From positions 558,001 to 622,000 of the forward strand of contig NZ_OY986431.1 of NCBI RefSeq assembly GCF_963920485.1: a DNA stretch of 64,000 bases, given 5' to 3'. Each line of letters starts with the position of its first letter. Positions within the stretch are counted from its first letter, which is position 1. This document shows, one piece after another, positions 13,253-54,904 of the stretch. A program made the position numbers and the translations under genes. This stretch comes from Cyanobium usitatum str. Tous (GTDB lineage: Bacteria; Cyanobacteriota; Cyanobacteriia; PCC-6307; Cyanobiaceae). The notes beneath the pieces were generated by a model. That model had not been told where the DNA came from, searched no databases, and saw only the letters and a list, made by a program, of their open reading frames with translations.

Positions 13253-13933
13253 TCAGGGACTGCCGAAGGCCACCTGGCAGGCCGCATTGAGCAACTGGGC
13301 TTCGGCAGCGATCGTGGGGGCGTAGCCGTTCAGCTCGCCATCGGCGCAGTCTGCATCCATGCTGTAGCTGCGGCCGTCACGGTCGACCACGAAGGTCACC
13401 ACGTGGTCGTTCGGTGCCTTCAGGGATCCGTAATCCAGCTGGTAAGTGCTGTTCGGCACCACGATCGTGGTTTGCTTCGCGTCGATGGCGGAGCTCACCG
13501 CTGCGTTGATCGTGGCGGCGGTGGCCAGGCCGGTGATGCCCCAGGCCGTGGTCCTGGGTCCCCACCATCCCCAGGAGGGAGCTCCCCCGTACCAGCCCCG
13601 TCCGTACCAGCCGTGCTTCCAGGGCCGGTGCCGCTGCCAGTCGTGGCGTGCCCAGCCGGGATGCTGCCGGCGATAGTCCACCGGACGGTTCCAGTGGTTG
13701 TGCTGCTCGTTGGGATTCCAGCGGCTGCTGTGCCAGCGGTTGGAATCGCGCTTCCAGTAATCCGGGTTCTTGGTGCCATGGTTGCTGGCCCCGTGGGACG
13801 GATTGGCCGCCGCGGAGAGCGTCAGCAGGGGCGTTGTGGCCAATGCCAGCAAGGCTGTTGTTGTGACCAGGGCCATGCCGCTGCTCCTCCAGCGCCCTGA
13901 AGTCCTTCCGCTCCGTCCAACCCCTCGGCTCAT
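13253..13933 (-). CDS. Secreted Trp/Gly/His-rich protein, paralogue of the protein at 53472-54413
   Basis: A 226-residue exported protein. A basic N-terminus (MSRGVGRSGRTSGRWR) precedes a hydrophobic signal segment ending near LSAAA. The middle (residues ~50-110) is rich in Trp, His, Arg and Asn. A WGWWGPRTTAWG patch leads into a hydrophobic stretch GLATAATINAAV and a C-terminal domain with TIVVPNSTYQLDYG and two cysteines in DADCADGELNG and LLNAACQVAFGSP. The same C-terminal architecture recurs at 53.5 kb. The MSR start was chosen because the paralogue begins MSRAL. Function unknown. Confidence 0.8.
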   Translation of the reverse strand: MSRGVGRSGRTSGRWRSSGMALVTTTALLALATTPLLTLSAAANPSHGASNHGTKNPDYWKRDSNRWHSSRWNPNEQHNHWNRPVDYRRQHPGWARHDWQRHRPWKHGWYGRGWYGGAPSWGWWGPRTTAWGITGLATAATINAAVSSAIDAKQTTIVVPNSTYQLDYGSLKAPNDHVVTFVVDRDGRSYSMDADCADGELNGYAPTIAAEAQLLNAACQVAFGSP

Positions 13934-13983: not shown

Positions 13984-14406
13984 TCATCCGATCAGGGCCC
14001 GCAGCCCCTCCACGTAGAGGACGCCTGTGCAGGTGAGGCCCCCGGCCCAGCACAGTCCCCGCAGGGGTGGAACGTTGCCCACGTAGGCACTGATGTAGGC
14101 GAGACGCAGGGCCGGGTGAATCCAGGCGGCGGCTATGGCGATCGGGCTGGTCACCCCCGCCAGTAAGCACAGCAGGGCTGCCGGGGCATGCAGGGTGAAG
14201 GCTTCAAAGCAGTTTTGGTGGGCCCAGGCGGCCCGCTTGCCCCAGGCCGGCAGGCGATCAAACATTGCCCTGGGGGCGGCCAGATCGGGCATCTGGAAAT
14301 TGGCCTGGGAGCGGGCGGCGCCCAGGGGCACGATGCTGAACACCACCACGCCAGCTGCCAGTAGCAACGACCAGGCGAAAGGGGCGAGTTGGGGAGAGAT
14401 GGGCAT
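13984..14406 (-). CDS. MAPEG family membrane protein
   Basis: A 140-residue membrane protein with four predicted hydrophobic helices. The central WAHQNCFEAFTLHAPAALLC is the conserved N-x-x-E-x-F motif of MAPEG proteins (relatives of microsomal glutathione S-transferases), followed by IHPALRLAYISAYVGNVPPLRGLCW. The enzymatic activity of bacterial members is mostly unknown; glutathione-dependent membrane chemistry is possible. It lies 24 nt downstream of the glutaminase gene on the same strand. Confidence 0.85.
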   Translation of the reverse strand: MPISPQLAPFAWSLLLAAGVVVFSIVPLGAARSQANFQMPDLAAPRAMFDRLPAWGKRAAWAHQNCFEAFTLHAPAALLCLLAGVTSPIAIAAAWIHPALRLAYISAYVGNVPPLRGLCWAGGLTCTGVLYVEGLRALIG

Positions 14407-14430: not shown

Positions 14431-16155
14431 CTAGGTTTCGCCCCGGTGGTGGGCACGCTCAAAGGCGTTGATTTCGAGCTGCACAACCCCTTCGTTGATT
14501 CCCAGCGCCCTGGCGATGGCGTGCAGTTGCTCCTGCTCTTGCGCTTCGATCATTCCATCGGCGCAGGCCACTTGAAAGGACGTTTCAAGGATGATCAGGC
14601 GGGCTTTGTCGTCAATGTGGTTGCGCTGCTCGGACAGTTCTGCGATCAAGCGCTCGAAGGGGGAGGTGGTGTGGGCGTGGGCGGGCTGCGGATCCGGGAG
14701 GCTGCGGGCCTTGGCTAGTGCTTCGAAGGCGCCGGGCTCGGCAGGGGTTTCCATCAGCTCTTGATAGATCCTTTCCATCACAGCCAGCTCGGAGGCCTCC
14801 AGCTCCCCATCGGCGAGGCTGATGTCCACGATGCAGTGAAGGATCAGATCCCGCACAAGCAGCGCTTTGGTGTCGCCATACAAGATTCCCCAGCGCAGAT
14901 CGGAGAGGTCCTGGTGCTTGCGTTGGCGGGAAGCTCGCGGGTCGCGCTTGCCGCCGGAGTGGCCTCCCGAGAGGTTGTCGTACATGTGCAGGTGGAAGCG
15001 CTCCCCCAGTTCCTTGCAGAGGGCAATGCCCCGCACTGAATTGCCGTAGGAATCGAGCCGTGGTGAGAAGGTGGCCAGGCCGAGCAGGTTGGGAGCCACC
15101 ACCAGGACCGATCCAGCCACCCCCGATTTGGCCGGCAGCCCCACCTCCAGAGTGAACACGCCGGCGTTGTCGTACAGGCCCGAGGTCTGCATGATCGCCA
15201 GGGTGCGCTTCACGATCTCAGTGGAGAGCACCTGGCGTCCCGTGATCGGGCAGACGCCCCCATTGGCCAGGGTGGCGGCTGCCACCGACAGCATCCGGGC
15301 GGTCATCTCGATGCTGCAACAGGAGAAGTAGACATCCAGCATCTTCTGGAGATCCACGCCCCGGGGCAGGCCGATGCCGCCCTGCAGCAGATAGGCGATG
15401 GCGAAGTTCGTATTGGCCGTGGCCCGCTCCGATTCCATCGTGATTTCGCTGAAGCGCACTGGTCCACAGTGGCCGCACAGCTCAGCCCACAACTCCATCA
15501 GCTGGCCTGTGATCTCCCTGGCATCGCTCTCGGGAAACCCGGAGGTCACCAGGCCGGCCATCATGATCGCGCCGGCATTCACGTTCGGGTTAAAGGGCCT
15601 TCGGTCAGCCAGCAGGCTGAGGTCATTGAAGGGAAGGCCGGAGGGTTCAACCCCCACGTGCCGGTGGGTGAACTCGGGGCCTTCCCGGCTAAGGGCGTAG
15701 GCGTAGGTGATCGGTTTCGATACCGACTGGATCGAGTGGTGCACATCCACATCGCCGAGGGCCAGGCGCTGTCCATCTACAGAACAGATCGCTACACCCC
15801 AGAGCTCGGGGTCTGCATCCCTCAGGATTGGAATGTAATCGGCGTTGGCGCCACCGCGGTTGGCTGACACCCGGTGGAAGAGGTAGTCAATGTCCTGGAG
15901 GAAGTCCTGCCATTCCGGAATAACCAGATGCTGGTGGAGTGCGCGCGACACCATCAGCAGCTCGGGACCCACCAGGGCGGAGAAGGCCTCGAGGCTCAGG
16001 GGGCCATCGCCGAGCCTGTTGAGCTGTTGAAAGGTTTGCGCTAGCCGGCCGTCGTCGGCCTGCAAGCCACTGGCCAGCAGGTGATGGCGCAGGCTGGCGG
16101 TGGATACGGCGCCGTCGCGTGCGGCCCTCGCGTAGAGCGCTTGCATGCGGTCCAT
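14431..16155 (-). CDS. glsA: Glutaminase with C-terminal TerB-like domain
   Basis: Hydrolyses glutamine to glutamate and ammonia. The 574-residue protein is much longer than the ~310-residue core enzyme. Residues ~1-75 resemble an EF-hand-like helical extension (LGDGPLSLEAFSALVG). The glutaminase domain spans ~80-395 with the SxxK pair at S144-K147 (HSIQSVSKPITY), plus NPNVNAGAIMMAGL and ESERATANTNFAIAYLL. Residues ~430-565 contain two acidic repeats (ADGELEASELAVM, ADGMIEAQEQEQL) typical of TerB-like domains. It is divergent from the YajQ gene. Confidence 0.9.
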   Translation of the reverse strand: MDRMQALYARAARDGAVSTASLRHHLLASGLQADDGRLAQTFQQLNRLGDGPLSLEAFSALVGPELLMVSRALHQHLVIPEWQDFLQDIDYLFHRVSANRGGANADYIPILRDADPELWGVAICSVDGQRLALGDVDVHHSIQSVSKPITYAYALSREGPEFTHRHVGVEPSGLPFNDLSLLADRRPFNPNVNAGAIMMAGLVTSGFPESDAREITGQLMELWAELCGHCGPVRFSEITMESERATANTNFAIAYLLQGGIGLPRGVDLQKMLDVYFSCCSIEMTARMLSVAAATLANGGVCPITGRQVLSTEIVKRTLAIMQTSGLYDNAGVFTLEVGLPAKSGVAGSVLVVAPNLLGLATFSPRLDSYGNSVRGIALCKELGERFHLHMYDNLSGGHSGGKRDPRASRQRKHQDLSDLRWGILYGDTKALLVRDLILHCIVDISLADGELEASELAVMERIYQELMETPAEPGAFEALAKARSLPDPQPAHAHTTSPFERLIAELSEQRNHIDDKARLIILETSFQVACADGMIEAQEQEQLHAIARALGINEGVVQLEINAFERAHHRGET

Positions 16156-49575: not shown

Positions 49576-51078
49576 ATGCCAAACGGAAAACCCAACGTTC
49601 TCATCCTCTGGGGTGACGACATCGGCCAAAGCAATCTGAGTTGCTACAGCGATGGCTTGATGGGCTATCAGACCCCCAACATTGACCGCGTAGCCAAGGA
49701 GGGTGGTCGCTTCATCCATTACTACGCCGAACAGAGCTGCACCGCTGGTCGTGCGGCGTTCATCTCCGGCCAGAGCGTCTTCCGCACCGGTCTTAGCAAG
49801 GTGGGGCTGCCTGGCGCCGAAGCTGGCTTTAAAGCGGAAGATCCCACCATTGCTGAACTGCTCAAGCCCCAGGGTTATCGCACCGGCCAGTTTGGCAAAA
49901 ACCACTTCGGCGATCGCGATGAGCATCTGCCGACCATGCACGGTTTTGACGAGTTTTTTGGCAACCTCTATCACCTCAACGCCGAGGAGGAGCCGGAGCT
50001 GCGCGACTATCCCACGCCTGAAGATTTCCCGAACTTCAAGGAGCGCTTCGGTCCCCGCGGTGTGTTGCATTGCTGGGCAAATGGTGACGGCAGCCAACGG
50101 ATTGAAAACACCGGCCCCCTAACCCGTAAGCGGATGGAGACGGCCGATGATGAATTCATGGCTGAGGCAAAGCGTTTCATTAGCGATGCCGTTGCATCTG
50201 GTGAACCCTTCTTCGTCTGGTTCAACACCACCCACATGCACTTCCGCACCTATGCGCGTCCCCAGGATGTGGGCCGCAGCGGTCGCTGGCAGTCGGAGTA
50301 TCACGACGTGATGATCTATCACGACGAGTGCATTGGTGAAATGCTCAACCTGCTCGACGAGTTGGGTGTCACCGATGACACCATCGTGATGTATGGCACC
50401 GACAACGGTCCCCACATGAACAGCTGGCCTGATGCCGGCATGACACCCTTCCGCAGCGAGAAGAACACCAATTGGGAAGGGGCTTATCGGGTGCCGGCCC
50501 TAGTGCGCTGGCCGGGGCATATCGCTCCTGGCACCATCTTCTCGGGTATCTGTAGCCACCTCGACTGGCTGCCCACCATCCTGGCGGCGGCCGGTGAGCC
50601 TGAGATCAAGGAGAAGCTCAAGGCGGGCTATCAGGTGGGCAATAAGACCTTCAAGGTGCACCTTGATGGTTACAACATGCTCGATTATTGGACTGGCCAG
50701 GCTGATAAGAGTCCCCGGGTTGAGTTCTTCTACTTCTCCGACGACGGTGACTTTACCGGCCTGCGTTACGACAACTGGAAGTTTGTGTTCATGGAGCAGC
50801 GCTCCCAGGGCACCTGCCAGATCTGGGCCGAACCGTTTACGGCTTTGCGGGTACCCAAGATCTTCAACCTGCTCACCGACCCCTATGAGCGCGCTGATGT
50901 GACCTCAAACACCTATTGGGACTGGATGTTTGATCACATTTTCCTGCTGGTACCAGCCCAGACCTACGTGGCCCAGTTCCTCGCTACCTTCGCCGAATAC
51001 CCACCCCGCCAAAAGGCTGCCAGCTTCTCGCTGCAGCAGGTGATGGAGAAGATGGTGAACACTGTCGGCGGCCCCTGA
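49576..51078 (+). CDS. Arylsulfatase (cysteine-type, FGly-dependent)
   Basis: A 500-residue type I sulfatase that hydrolyses sulfate esters. The modification motif is C55-T-A-G-R (SCTAGRAAFISGQ), where Cys becomes formylglycine. Metal-binding Asp residues lie at LWGDDIG (14-15) and MYGTDNGPH. No signal peptide is present (MPNGKPNVLILWGDD), so the enzyme is probably cytoplasmic, which suits modification by the adjacent FGE. The natural substrate is not known. Confidence 0.92.
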   Translation: MPNGKPNVLILWGDDIGQSNLSCYSDGLMGYQTPNIDRVAKEGGRFIHYYAEQSCTAGRAAFISGQSVFRTGLSKVGLPGAEAGFKAEDPTIAELLKPQGYRTGQFGKNHFGDRDEHLPTMHGFDEFFGNLYHLNAEEEPELRDYPTPEDFPNFKERFGPRGVLHCWANGDGSQRIENTGPLTRKRMETADDEFMAEAKRFISDAVASGEPFFVWFNTTHMHFRTYARPQDVGRSGRWQSEYHDVMIYHDECIGEMLNLLDELGVTDDTIVMYGTDNGPHMNSWPDAGMTPFRSEKNTNWEGAYRVPALVRWPGHIAPGTIFSGICSHLDWLPTILAAAGEPEIKEKLKAGYQVGNKTFKVHLDGYNMLDYWTGQADKSPRVEFFYFSDDGDFTGLRYDNWKFVFMEQRSQGTCQIWAEPFTALRVPKIFNLLTDPYERADVTSNTYWDWMFDHIFLLVPAQTYVAQFLATFAEYPPRQKAASFSLQQVMEKMVNTVGGP

Positions 51079-51088
51079 TCCTGCCGCC

Positions 51089-52060
51089 ATGTCAGCCGGC
51101 ACCGCCCGATCCCCCGGTCGTCCCCCATTCCCCGGAATGGTGTGGATACCGGCGGGCGGCTTCCGGATGGGGTCAGACCACCACTACCCCGAGGAGGCTC
51201 CGGCCCATGAAGTTGAGGTAGAGGGCTTCTGGATCGATCGCACGCCCGTCACTAACGCCCAGTTTCGGAGCTTTGTGAAAGCCACCGGCTACCGCACGCT
51301 GGCGGAGCAGCCAGCAAATCCCGCTCACTATCCCGGCGCCAATCAGGAACGATTGGCGCCTGCATCAATAGTTTTTGTGCCGCCCCCGGGGCCGCTGGGG
51401 CCTGGCAGTCACTACCGCTGGTGGCAATATCTCGCCGGAGCAAATTGGCGTCATCCGGAGGGGCCGGGCAGCTCGATTAAGCGCCGCGAGCAGCATCCGG
51501 TGGTCCATGTCGCTTGGGAGGACGTTTTGGCCTACGCCAGCTGGTGCGGCAAGCAGTTGCCTACGGAGGAGGAATGGGAGCGGGCAGCTTGGGGCGGCCT
51601 GTGCAATGCCGAGTTTGCCTGGGGTGAAGAGCTCTATCCCGGTGGGGTGCCCCTAGCTAATACCTTTCAGGGTGATTTCCCCCACTACAACAGCCGCTTA
51701 GATGGCTACGAGCGCACCTCCCCCGTAGGCGCTTTCCCTGCCAACGGCTATGGGTTGGTCGACATGATTGGCAATGTGTGGGAGTGGACCGCTAGCTGGT
51801 ACGGCCCGCACCAGCAGAGCACGGGAGGCTGTTGCGCCGAAGCTGCTGCCCAAGCCCAAGCGCGAGAAGCAAGCATTGATCGCAACTCGCAGCACGGCGA
51901 GCAACCACGTAAAGCGGTTAAAGGTGGTTCTTATTTATGTGCACCTAGCTATTGCCGCCGCTACCGCCCCGCAGCCCGCATGGCCCAGGGGCTTGATACC
52001 TCCACGGGCCATATGGGTTTTCGCTGTGTGGTGAGGCCCTCAGAGCTGGCGACGCTCTAA
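51089..52060 (+). CDS. Formylglycine-generating enzyme (SUMF1 family)
   Basis: A 323-residue enzyme that oxidises the sulfatase cysteine to formylglycine. PGMVWIPAGGFRMGSDHHYPEEAP opens the fold. The active-site pair is C284 and C289 in KGGSYLCAPSYCRRYRP, matching the essential cysteine pair of known aerobic FGEs. MIGNVWEWTASWYG is also typical. It starts 10 nt after the sulfatase gene, so the two form an operon. Its last 21 nt overlap mscL on the other strand. Confidence 0.93.
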   Translation: MSAGTARSPGRPPFPGMVWIPAGGFRMGSDHHYPEEAPAHEVEVEGFWIDRTPVTNAQFRSFVKATGYRTLAEQPANPAHYPGANQERLAPASIVFVPPPGPLGPGSHYRWWQYLAGANWRHPEGPGSSIKRREQHPVVHVAWEDVLAYASWCGKQLPTEEEWERAAWGGLCNAEFAWGEELYPGGVPLANTFQGDFPHYNSRLDGYERTSPVGAFPANGYGLVDMIGNVWEWTASWYGPHQQSTGGCCAEAAAQAQAREASIDRNSQHGEQPRKAVKGGSYLCAPSYCRRYRPAARMAQGLDTSTGHMGFRCVVRPSELATL

Positions 52061-52426: not shown

Positions 52427-53356
52427 TTAGAAGAAGAACTTGAGGCCAATTTCAAAGCCGTTCCGATAGCTGCTGTAGCCACTGTCGGGGGTGTCGCCAG
52501 TATTGTAGTTGATCCCCGAATAGCGCCAGGAAATATTTAGGTCAGTGTTGTTACCGACTGCATAGCCAAGGCCAACTTGGGCGTTTCCGGAAAGATCTTC
52601 TGATCCACTGAGCCCAAAGCCACCGATGTCGGCACGGGCAAATGCCCGTAAGCGAGGAGACATGAAAATCGTAGCCTGGGTTCCCAAAAGAGGTTGAACC
52701 CAGGTGCGTCCAAAAGAACCTTCGCGTTCAAAACTGATCCGACCTCCACTGCCTTGAATCTGGGCTGCCACATCCAATTGGGCATCAATTACCCGTATGC
52801 CGGCGTAGGGGATTAGGCTGAATTGCCCAGGTTTGCCCACCGCAGCTTCTCGATCCCCAAAGCGATAGCGCAGGGCAAGGTCGTAAATCCCCTGAGAGGC
52901 GGTGACTTCAGCACTGCCCGTAAAGATTCCTCGCTCGCCTGTTTTCGATCCGTATTGCCCCAGTTTAACGTAATCCAGATCGACTAAAATACCTAGTCGA
53001 TCCTTTTCGATGCTGCCGCGCAGGGTGGTTGCCCACTTCAGTTTGGAAAGAACTTCACCGAGATTCAGATCGGTGTCGGTACTGAAGTTTCTTGTTCCAT
53101 TTGTGACTGTTGTTGTCCCGGTGCTACGCACTGGAGCAAAGCCATATAACTCAATTGTGCCTGCCCAAGGAGAGACAGCCGCTGACTGGGGTGTGGAGAC
53201 AGTGGGAGTCTCTTCGCTAGGGGGATCACCAGCAGCGGGATCAGACTGCTGCGCGCGCAGTTCACTAGTGAGGCCGCCGCCCAGGCTGAGCCCTAAAAAG
53301 ATTGTAATTGCTCTGGCCTGCTGCCTGGCTTGATTGCCAAGAAGTTGCTTCATCAT
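52427..53356 (-). CDS. Outer-membrane beta-barrel protein
   Basis: A 309-residue exported protein. A signal segment (AITIFLGLSLGGGLTSELRA) precedes an acidic Pro/Thr-rich linker, then alternating polar/aromatic strands to a terminal FEIGLKFFF, the aromatic end of outer-membrane barrels. LYGFAPVRSTGTTTV, WKYSGIN-like and YRFGDREAA segments look like barrel strands. Start at MMKQLLG (53356); an upstream in-frame extension is unlikely. The barrel family cannot be named with confidence; OmpW/omp25-like is a possibility. Confidence 0.7.
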   Translation of the reverse strand: MMKQLLGNQARQQARAITIFLGLSLGGGLTSELRAQQSDPAAGDPPSEETPTVSTPQSAAVSPWAGTIELYGFAPVRSTGTTTVTNGTRNFSTDTDLNLGEVLSKLKWATTLRGSIEKDRLGILVDLDYVKLGQYGSKTGERGIFTGSAEVTASQGIYDLALRYRFGDREAAVGKPGQFSLIPYAGIRVIDAQLDVAAQIQGSGGRISFEREGSFGRTWVQPLLGTQATIFMSPRLRAFARADIGGFGLSGSEDLSGNAQVGLGYAVGNNTDLNISWRYSGINYNTGDTPDSGYSSYRNGFEIGLKFFF

Positions 53357-53471
53357 CTCGGCTAATACATGGAAGAAGGAACGATGGCGTGCATTTTTGC
53401 CATCAATTTTTGCAATCAAAAAAGTTGGATCTGTCGGCCTAGCAGCGACAGATCCATGGGCTGTTAGCCAG

Positions 53472-54413
53472 TTAAACCGATCCGTATGCCACTTGGCAGG
53501 CGGCATTGAGGAGTTCGGCTTCTTCGGCGTTGCTGGGCTCTTGACCGTTGATTGTGCCCTGGTTGCAATTGGCGGTTAGCTGGTAGTTGTTGCCATTGGC
53601 CTGCGTCACGAAACTCACTGAATTGCTACCGGATGGTTGGACCGTTCCGTATAGCAACTGGTAGTTAGTGTTGGGCACCACAATGTAGGTGGTGTTACTG
53701 CTTACAGCATTATTAACAGAGTCGTTAATGATTGCCGCGGTGGCGAGAGTTGCCACGCCCCAGGCTGCTGCCCGGGTGCCCCACCATCCCCAAGTTGGGG
53801 TTGACCAGCCGCCATACCAGCCGTAGTTCCAAGGGCGTGCCACACCCCATCCGGGCCTTGCCCAGCCTGGGCGTACATTGACATTGTTGATATTGACGCT
53901 TCGGTTCCAGTTGCGATTAATATCGCGATTTATATTCCGATTCACGTCACGATTTACATCGCGGTTTACGTCACGATTGATATTTCTATTGCCGTCTCGA
54001 TTCAGGTCGCGATTGCTATCACGGGTGGCGATTCGCTCACCGCCTTGGCCTGCGCCTGTTAATTGACGAGTGCCAGCTGCTGGACGGTTAGTCGTCTTTG
54101 CCCGGTTTAGGGAAGGCCCACCTGCCCCGCCAGCTCCCGAACCAACCCTGGCATTGTTGCTCCAGCCACCGGTGGGCCGGCTTGAGCCGCGGTTGAGGCC
54201 AGCACCGGCATTGCTGAAACCGCTGTTGCCACCGGCGCGCCTGGCACTGCCACCACCGCCACCACGGGCAAGCAGCTGGGCTGTGCCGTTATCCGGTATG
54301 GGGTTATTCGCCATGGGGTGATCAATGGCAAACGCCGTGCCGAGCGGCAGGGCCAACACTCCCGCTAGCGCCAGTCCCAGGCAACGCCACGGGGTTTTTA
54401 GTGCACGGCTCAT
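53472..54413 (-). CDS. Secreted RDxN-repeat protein, paralogue of 13253-13933
   Basis: A 313-residue exported protein. Signal peptide MSRALKTPWRCLGLALAGVLALPLGTAFA, a Gly/Arg/Asn-rich region, then ten tandem RDxN-type tetrapeptides at residues 131-170. A Trp/Gly-rich patch (RPGWARPGWGVARPWNYGWYGG, WGWWGTRAAAWG) leads into LATAAIINDSVNNAV, then TYIVVPNTNYQLLYG and a two-cysteine C-terminus (ANCNQGTINGQEP; LLNAACQVAYGSV), as in the 13.3-kb paralogue. Its ATG overlaps the stop of the upstream gene by 4 nt. Function unknown. Confidence 0.82.
   Translation of the reverse strand: MSRALKTPWRCLGLALAGVLALPLGTAFAIDHPMANNPIPDNGTAQLLARGGGGGSARRAGGNSGFSNAGAGLNRGSSRPTGGWSNNARVGSGAGGAGGPSLNRAKTTNRPAAGTRQLTGAGQGGERIATRDSNRDLNRDGNRNINRDVNRDVNRDVNRNINRDINRNWNRSVNINNVNVRPGWARPGWGVARPWNYGWYGGWSTPTWGWWGTRAAAWGVATLATAAIINDSVNNAVSSNTTYIVVPNTNYQLLYGTVQPSGSNSVSFVTQANGNNYQLTANCNQGTINGQEPSNAEEAELLNAACQVAYGSV
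53904..54023 (-). repeat. Ten tandem 12-bp units encoding RDxN
   Basis: Codons for residues 131-170 form ten consecutive 12-nt units encoding R-D/N-x-N (x = S, L, G, I, V, V, V, I, I, W). Wobble positions vary from unit to unit, so the repeat is old enough to have diverged, or is kept by protein-level selection. Confidence 0.85.
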
Positions 54414-54904
54414 TTGCCGACCCCCTTGCAGCCGTCGTCGTAGCAGGTGAGATCTATGCGGCCATCAGCGCCGAACTGCACCTTGATCAGGTCGCGGCCT
54501 GCCGTTGCATCAGGACGATCCTCTTTGACACTGTTGAGGTAATTGGGGTTGATCACGCACAGGTCTCGGCCGTTGAAGCAGATCGTGTTCGTAGAGAAGC
54601 GGGCTGCTGCTGAGTCGAGGTTTTTCCAGCTCTTCTTGTTTTCCACCCAAAGGCTCATGCGCACTGGGCTATCGGTGACCCGAATAGTTTCAACTTTTTT
54701 GCCGATGCTGTGCCGGTAGAGGGTTGCATTGCCCTTGTTCACAGCTTCCACCACGCAGGCCTGGGGTTCACCGCCTTTGATTCGGCACGTGGTGTCGAGC
54801 TTGTAGAGGGTTTCTGCTTGGGCTGTGGCTGGAGCTGCCGCCAGCAGGCTCGCGGCAGCGGCCAGCAAGCCGATGCGGCTGCACAAGGGGTTGCGGTTCA
54901 ACAT
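54410..54904 (-). CDS. Secreted cysteine-containing protein of unknown function
   Basis: A 164-residue exported protein: signal peptide MLNRNPLCSRIGLLAAAASLLAAAPATAQA, then LYKLDTTCRIKGGEPQACVVEAVNKGNATLY and later TICFNGRDLCVINPNYLNS and DLTCYDDGCKGVGK. Six cysteines in the mature part can form three disulfides. It overlaps the RDxN-repeat gene by 4 nt (ATGA), so the two are co-translated. No family recognised. Confidence 0.75.
   Translation of the reverse strand: MLNRNPLCSRIGLLAAAASLLAAAPATAQAETLYKLDTTCRIKGGEPQACVVEAVNKGNATLYRHSIGKKVETIRVTDSPVRMSLWVENKKSWKNLDSAAARFSTNTICFNGRDLCVINPNYLNSVKEDRPDATAGRDLIKVQFGADGRIDLTCYDDGCKGVGK

Follow-up and report, generated by a model that had tools for sequence, protein, structure and literature searches.

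Haemophilus influenzae protein E (Pfam Adhesin_E, PF16747), a pathogen's adhesin, is a described protein that the family reported here may resemble in the shape of its C-terminal head. As far as the accessible text of two reports describes it, protein E is built of six antiparallel strands and a helix, and a disulphide bond (Cys99-Cys148) joins the end of strand 4 to the main C-terminal helix (PMC6652776, PMC7857515). No part of the picocyanobacterial proteome is less understood than the exported proteins, of which 54% are hypothetical according to the accessible text of a marine-strain survey (PMC4949707). We analyzed a window of 64,000 nucleotides from the genome of Cyanobium usitatum str. 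Tous, in which we identified one such family, predicted to be exported, and we offer for it a fold hypothesis with a testable disulphide. Should this fold be correct, relatives of a head described in a pathogen's adhesin would occur in free-living cyanobacteria.

The window contains two members of the family, P1 and P2, with the following features.

13253-13933, minus strand: family member 1 (P1), 226 residues, reading frame confirmed
13256-13666, minus strand: conserved C-terminal region of P1 (Trp/Gly patch, hydrophobic segment and head)
53472-54413, minus strand: family member 2 (P2), 313 residues, reading frame confirmed
54327-54413, minus strand: probable Sec signal peptide of P2, residues 1-29, ending ...GTAFA/ID (by eye and hydropathy)
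53880-54266, minus strand: low-complexity basic middle of P2, Gly/Arg/Asn-rich, with NRDVNRD repeats
53475-53879, minus strand: conserved C-terminal region of P2, 135 residues modelled
53565-53567, minus strand: codon of invariant Cys283 (model residue 105), just past the last strand
53496-53498, minus strand: codon of invariant Cys306 (model residue 128), in the C-terminal helix

BLASTP aligned P1 and P2 with 80 of 167 residues identical (48%, E 6e-49), which confirms the relationship proposed for the two proteins in an earlier sequence-only reading of the window. The block common to both consists of the Trp/Gly patch, a hydrophobic stretch, the motif IVVPN..YQL.YG and two cysteines. P1 is composed of an export-like N terminus, a His/Trp-rich basic middle, the Trp/Gly patch, the hydrophobic segment and the two-cysteine head. 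The alignment begins about 30 residues ahead of the Trp/Gly patch, inside an Asn/Arg- or His/Trp-rich stretch, so the two middles are not wholly unrelated there, contrary to the earlier statement that they differ completely. The earlier reading gave a two-Cys end; one of the two cysteines lies in the last helix (NAAC), and the other follows the last strand (A-D/N-C), 23 residues earlier. The common MSR start was a coincidence, because close relatives of P2 begin with MNSALK or MTSAQD (L007, L008).

When the complete genome (2.66 Mb) was searched with the domain common to P1 and P2, it proved to encode four family members (P1, P2 and proteins of 321 and 213 residues), twice the number first proposed. 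All four have an N terminus that by eye looks like an export signal, a low-complexity middle, the Trp/Gly patch, a moderately hydrophobic stretch and the C-terminal two-cysteine head. A fifth match (E 0.127, 30% identity over 43 residues) was judged to be due to chance. P1 and P2 matched no Pfam, NCBIfam or defence model, in agreement with the suggestion of an undescribed family. The Pfam- and PHROG-type matches of other members were below cut-off and outside the conserved region. A KKKGYEKG charged repeat in the third member (L003, 862-1827) resembles the FliH and Yae1 profiles below cut-off; its FliH, Yae1 and PHROG matches fall in this repeat and were rejected, as was a weak RNase_Y_N match located in the repeat of one other member. 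The gene upstream of P1 belongs to the MAPEG family (13984-14406), and P1 has no partner gene of the kind described below for P2. At 14431-16155 of the window, a single frame encodes, in this order, an EF-hand region, a glutaminase and a TerB region, all above the Pfam cut-off.

Members of this unclassified family are carried by the Synechococcus-Cyanobium group of small cyanobacteria. We searched samples drawn from the phylum (386, 291 and 244 genomes). Among the 386 genomes, initial matches were found in 20; the weak matches in two of these (G117 and G271) were in large proteins, which we take from their look to be glycoside-hydrolase-like, and were set aside as unrelated chance matches. The remaining 18 genomes carry 36 family genes, up to five per genome; the 36 include one, in G272, whose match is partial and whose frame is short. 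Seventeen of these genomes belong to the same family as the window, and one, with two genes, to another family of the class. A profile search and a structure prediction, both of which the sequence-only reading had proposed, were performed; the former recovered the same 18 genomes plus seven weak ones. Six of the weak matches were read, and were exported proteins resembling DUF6515 (PF20125) or containing a cyanobacterial secreted domain that we call CNY, plus one fitting neither. The best 80 of 152 matching loci, hereafter the named loci, are biased towards P2-like members and carry the names Synechococcus, Cyanobium, Vulcanococcus, Aphanothece, unspecified cyanobacterial, one 'Microcystis elabens' and one 'Bifidobacterium' MAG. 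One pattern scan of viral contigs revealed no relative of the family. The literature searched, in which subscription titles are thinly covered, contained no description of the family by title or abstract start, and no experiment on the location or binding of the family or of its partner. A tree of 33 hand-chosen sequences had several nodes with support of 41-72, and no conclusion rests on it.

The same architecture was conserved among the relatives. The stop codon follows the profile match after 0-3 residues in 79 of the 80 named loci, and after 26 residues in the other one. Tandem members occur in L030 (two frames) and in G320 (contig 25:65994-67359), and of the two in L030, one is extended by about 60 residues at its C terminus. 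Whether the middle is always of low complexity had been raised as a check, and it was so in the 78 named loci that could be scored (L049 and L077 were unscored): the middle is 121-211 residues long, net positive and free of cysteine, with a median of 74% and a minimum of 46% of G/R/N/S/A/P. Over the 80 named domains, the hydrophobic stretch has a best 19-residue hydropathy of 1.0-1.6, below the values of the signal peptides of P1 and P2 (1.7 and 2.1, respectively). Both head cysteines were invariant in 82 of 82 alignment rows, and the mean column identity of the conserved region was 71% in this P2-biased set. These data support the view of a modular family, predicted to be exported from the look of its N termini, in which the C-terminal domain is fixed and the low-complexity middle varies.

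The AlphaFold model of the P2 head had a modest pLDDT of 70.5, with model residues 1-29 below 50. It contains helices at 32-39, 48-60 and 118-132 and strands at 74-83, 87-94 and 97-104. Foldseek gave nothing at E<=0.001. When the head was realigned to 999 chains preselected by Foldseek, protein E of Haemophilus filled the four top places (Z 6.6, 6.5, 5.5 and 4.8; rmsd 2.8-3.6 A, 75 residues aligned, from a modest model and with a non-significant Foldseek result), and the next entry was unrelated (Z 3.3). The best Z is below 8, and top Z values of 7-8 are typical of models that have no clear match when these are compared with a larger set of chains. Adhesin_E (PF16747) had been written down as a hypothesis before the fold results, prompted by weak profile relatives elsewhere in the phylum. 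In the model, the head cysteines (residues 105 and 128) lie at a strand end and in the C-terminal helix, where they are placed for a predicted tether of the protein E type.

The head may thus share the protein E fold, a hypothesis with some support from the model that stops short of Adhesin_E membership. What suggests the likeness to protein E is that one protein fills all the top rows and that the cysteines are similarly placed. Both proteins are exported or predicted to be so, and both combine an antiparallel sheet with a C-terminal helix; in each, a strand end carries one cysteine and the helix the other, as modelled for the head and as given for protein E in the accessible text of the two reports. 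On the same basis, the head differs in having three strands of three or more residues instead of six. Its cysteines are 23 residues apart, compared with 49 in protein E. By eye, P1 and P2 lack a lipobox, and their signal peptides have no cysteine at the end, whereas protein E is lipid-anchored. The family also differs from protein E in its long basic stalk, its Trp/Gly segment and the pairing of about half of its members with a partner.

We consider it unlikely, though well worth weighing, that the likeness arose by chance and that the head is a small alpha/beta fold common only to the CNY domain. The Z below 8 and the non-significant Foldseek result are in line with this explanation; all four top entries being one protein, well above the next at 3.3, and a hypothesis written before the fold results argue against it, as does the similar placement of the cysteines. 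Profile comparisons bear on both sides. PF16747 had no match in P1, P2, the other two members or the genome at E<=1, and a direct comparison of the head with an Adhesin_E profile made from 22 hand-chosen loci of 30 fetched gave a probability of 0.45-0.64, within the shuffle range (0.58 in the shuffle-controlled comparison, in which shuffles reached up to 10). Adhesin_E exceeded the cut-off in 26 of 291 phylum genomes, with no match listed in the family of the window. The head is related to CNY at a profile probability of 91 (best of 100 column shuffles, 11), the two having in common the pattern SI...V.F......ANC.G....P.S.A...L...VC, and when 104 head sequences were searched with the CNY profile, heads were recovered (best E 3e-8). 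CNY differs in lacking the stalk and the Trp/Gly segment (14 frames aligned) and in having a longer loop between the cysteines.

The probability between CNY and Adhesin_E was 0.9 with 3 rows and 25 with 15 rows, and removal of gap-rich columns raised it to 43, whereas 100 shuffles did not exceed 14. Of the six CNY proteins that were scanned, one matched PF16747 at E 0.011, below cut-off; the other five showed no match, which is in line with a chance likeness. CNY is therefore at most weakly related to Adhesin_E by these profiles, a link that nevertheless speaks against chance, and the path from the head to Adhesin_E via CNY is indirect. Because the head may share the protein E fold and is profile-related to CNY, the earlier proposal of a novel C-terminal domain probably does not hold. 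The CNY domain (L170-L178, L188, L192) occurs alone, doubled or with an SH3-like tail (below cut-off), and has no Pfam family above cut-off. Exported DUF6515 proteins (L126, L128) match the family weakly over the Trp/Gly and hydrophobic segment and have similar repeats before it, but their C-terminal domain differs from the head, suggesting possible module swapping. DUF6515 had no match in P1 or P2, and none in the genome at E<=0.1.

A gene that we designated UP precedes P2. The sequence-only reading described P2 itself and did not mention this partner.

54410-54904, minus strand: partner gene UP, 164 residues, probable start 54904, directly upstream of P2

UP consists of an export-like N terminus and an all-beta domain of about 135 residues with six invariant cysteines, and its stop codon overlaps the start codon of P2 by four bases (ATGA). 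In the 386 phylum genomes, 17 UP genes were found in 15 genomes, and only upstream of family domains; computed from coordinates, all 17 are on the same strand as the domain match and 426-690 bases upstream of it. UP precedes the family gene in 79 of the 80 named loci, and the remaining one (L077) is truncated by the end of the contig, 127 bases ahead of the domain. With the start codon placed as close as possible to the UP stop, the two genes overlap in 75 of these 79 loci (4 nt in 67 loci, 1 nt in the other 8); three have a gap, and L049 has no start codon in range. By gene linkage, UP is a candidate dedicated partner for about half of the family members. The other 19 of the 36 family genes found among the 386 genomes, P1 included, have no detected UP (a very diverged UP could escape), indicating that UP is not always needed. 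Since about half of the members are tied to one specific partner, a single gene pair would be enough for a test of function.

The six UP cysteines were invariant in 78 of 78 rows (the window and 77 of the 79 loci; the partial L081 and L088 were left out). The UP model had a pLDDT of 92.9 and was mostly beta. A fold search yielded a flat list (best Z 5.7) with no clearly similar solved structure. Against PDB sequences, the head had no match and UP matched only at E>=0.7. A Hydrophobin_2 match (E 0.0078, below cut-off) spans the signal peptide of UP and was set aside. A promoter scan near the UP-P2 pair found none, and the terminator scan was at chance level.

We then compared the divergence of UP with that of the head. 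Their distances were correlated (r 0.75 over 77 loci; highest of 500 permutations, 0.20); the permutations leave shared ancestry in, and joint inheritance would also give such a correlation. Nine genomes containing two or three pairs were chosen by hand on the basis of their record titles. In 17 of 17 testable pairs of these genomes, UP and head were both nearer to a pair of another genome than to the sister pair, and in 9 of 18 they had one and the same nearest locus. Some genomes carry several diverged pairs, and the two genes overlap and both look exported, as would be seen for a secreted effector with an immunity partner used against neighbouring cells. We regard this explanation as very improbable: the conserved region varies little, as its column identity in the P2-biased set indicates, many members have no detected UP, the defence library matched neither P1 nor P2 and gave only E 0.036 for UP, and there was no toxin-like Pfam match.

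The UP-P2 pair is most likely an envelope or surface binding pair, whose location, contact and ligand we infer. We tentatively favour, above each alternative, the interpretation that the 53.5-kb locus encodes a two-protein envelope unit of UP and a stalked P2 with a protein E-like head acting as a binding module. UP and P2 would be translated successively from the overlapping genes, and both are predicted to be exported. The disordered, positively charged stalk of P2 would hold or span anionic envelope or exopolysaccharide material, and the Trp/Gly-rich segment and moderately hydrophobic helix would probably lie at a membrane or wall interface. As in protein E of Haemophilus, the head would be a short antiparallel sheet to which a single disulphide pins the C-terminal helix. 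The head would serve as the binding module, with UP as its dedicated partner (a lid, co-receptor or assembly factor). P1 and the two further genome members have the same architecture without UP. Of this account, the family itself, the overlap of the genes, their linkage and the invariance of the cysteines are established; export, the likeness in fold and the disulphide are predictions.

The low-complexity basic middle, the invariant cysteines of both proteins and the members without detected UP would also fit a purely structural periplasmic or wall protein, with a stalk that binds peptidoglycan or polysaccharide, a head that is no more than a stable cap, and UP aiding the folding of the head. 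This is possible and, in our estimate, clearly the less probable account; UP is a compact all-beta domain in the model, and the joint divergence of UP and head is not expected of a general helper. A stronger form of the binding-pair interpretation is doubtful at present, namely a new exported two-protein surface unit of free-living picocyanobacteria with a protein E-like head, a basic stalk and a co-translated, specifically matched six-cysteine partner of new fold, in which diverged pairs would be parallel receptors that differ in specificity. Their targets would be matrix, particles, grazers or neighbouring cells.

The genes downstream of P2 were also compared among the loci.

52427-53506, minus strand: outer-membrane beta-barrel-like gene (PF13505 below cut-off), probable start near 53356, downstream of P2
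49576-51078, plus strand: sulfatase gene (PF00884, E 1.7e-46), convergent with the UP-P2 pair
51089-52060, plus strand: FGE-sulfatase gene (PF03781, formylglycine-generating-enzyme-like, E 3.7e-81), convergent with the UP-P2 pair

In 14 of the 80 named loci, a barrel homologue on the same strand starts at most 2 kb further downstream; the count is 15 with the borderline L037, in which the match begins 31 bases before the domain end. Sulfatase and/or FGE genes are found in 30 of the 80, both in 24: 16 are convergent downstream, 11 co-directional upstream, 2 have the sulfatase alone upstream, and 1 (L108) is a weak match of 31%. These neighbours are hints of an envelope or sulfated-polymer setting. 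On this count the UP-P2 pair might itself be part of a sulfate-ester metabolism locus with the sulfatase and FGE, which we consider improbable; neither gene is in the flanks, in some cases short, of the other 50 loci, the two main layouts could result from a single local inversion, and related genomes are not independent. Among the 27 named loci with a sulfatase match, sulfatase identity was 79-99% in 26. By eye, the window sulfatase (beside FGE, 49576-52060) has no obvious signal peptide. One record, L093, is titled as a Bifidobacterium breve MAG and holds a cyanobacterial locus with the sulfatase; it is probably mislabelled or contaminated.
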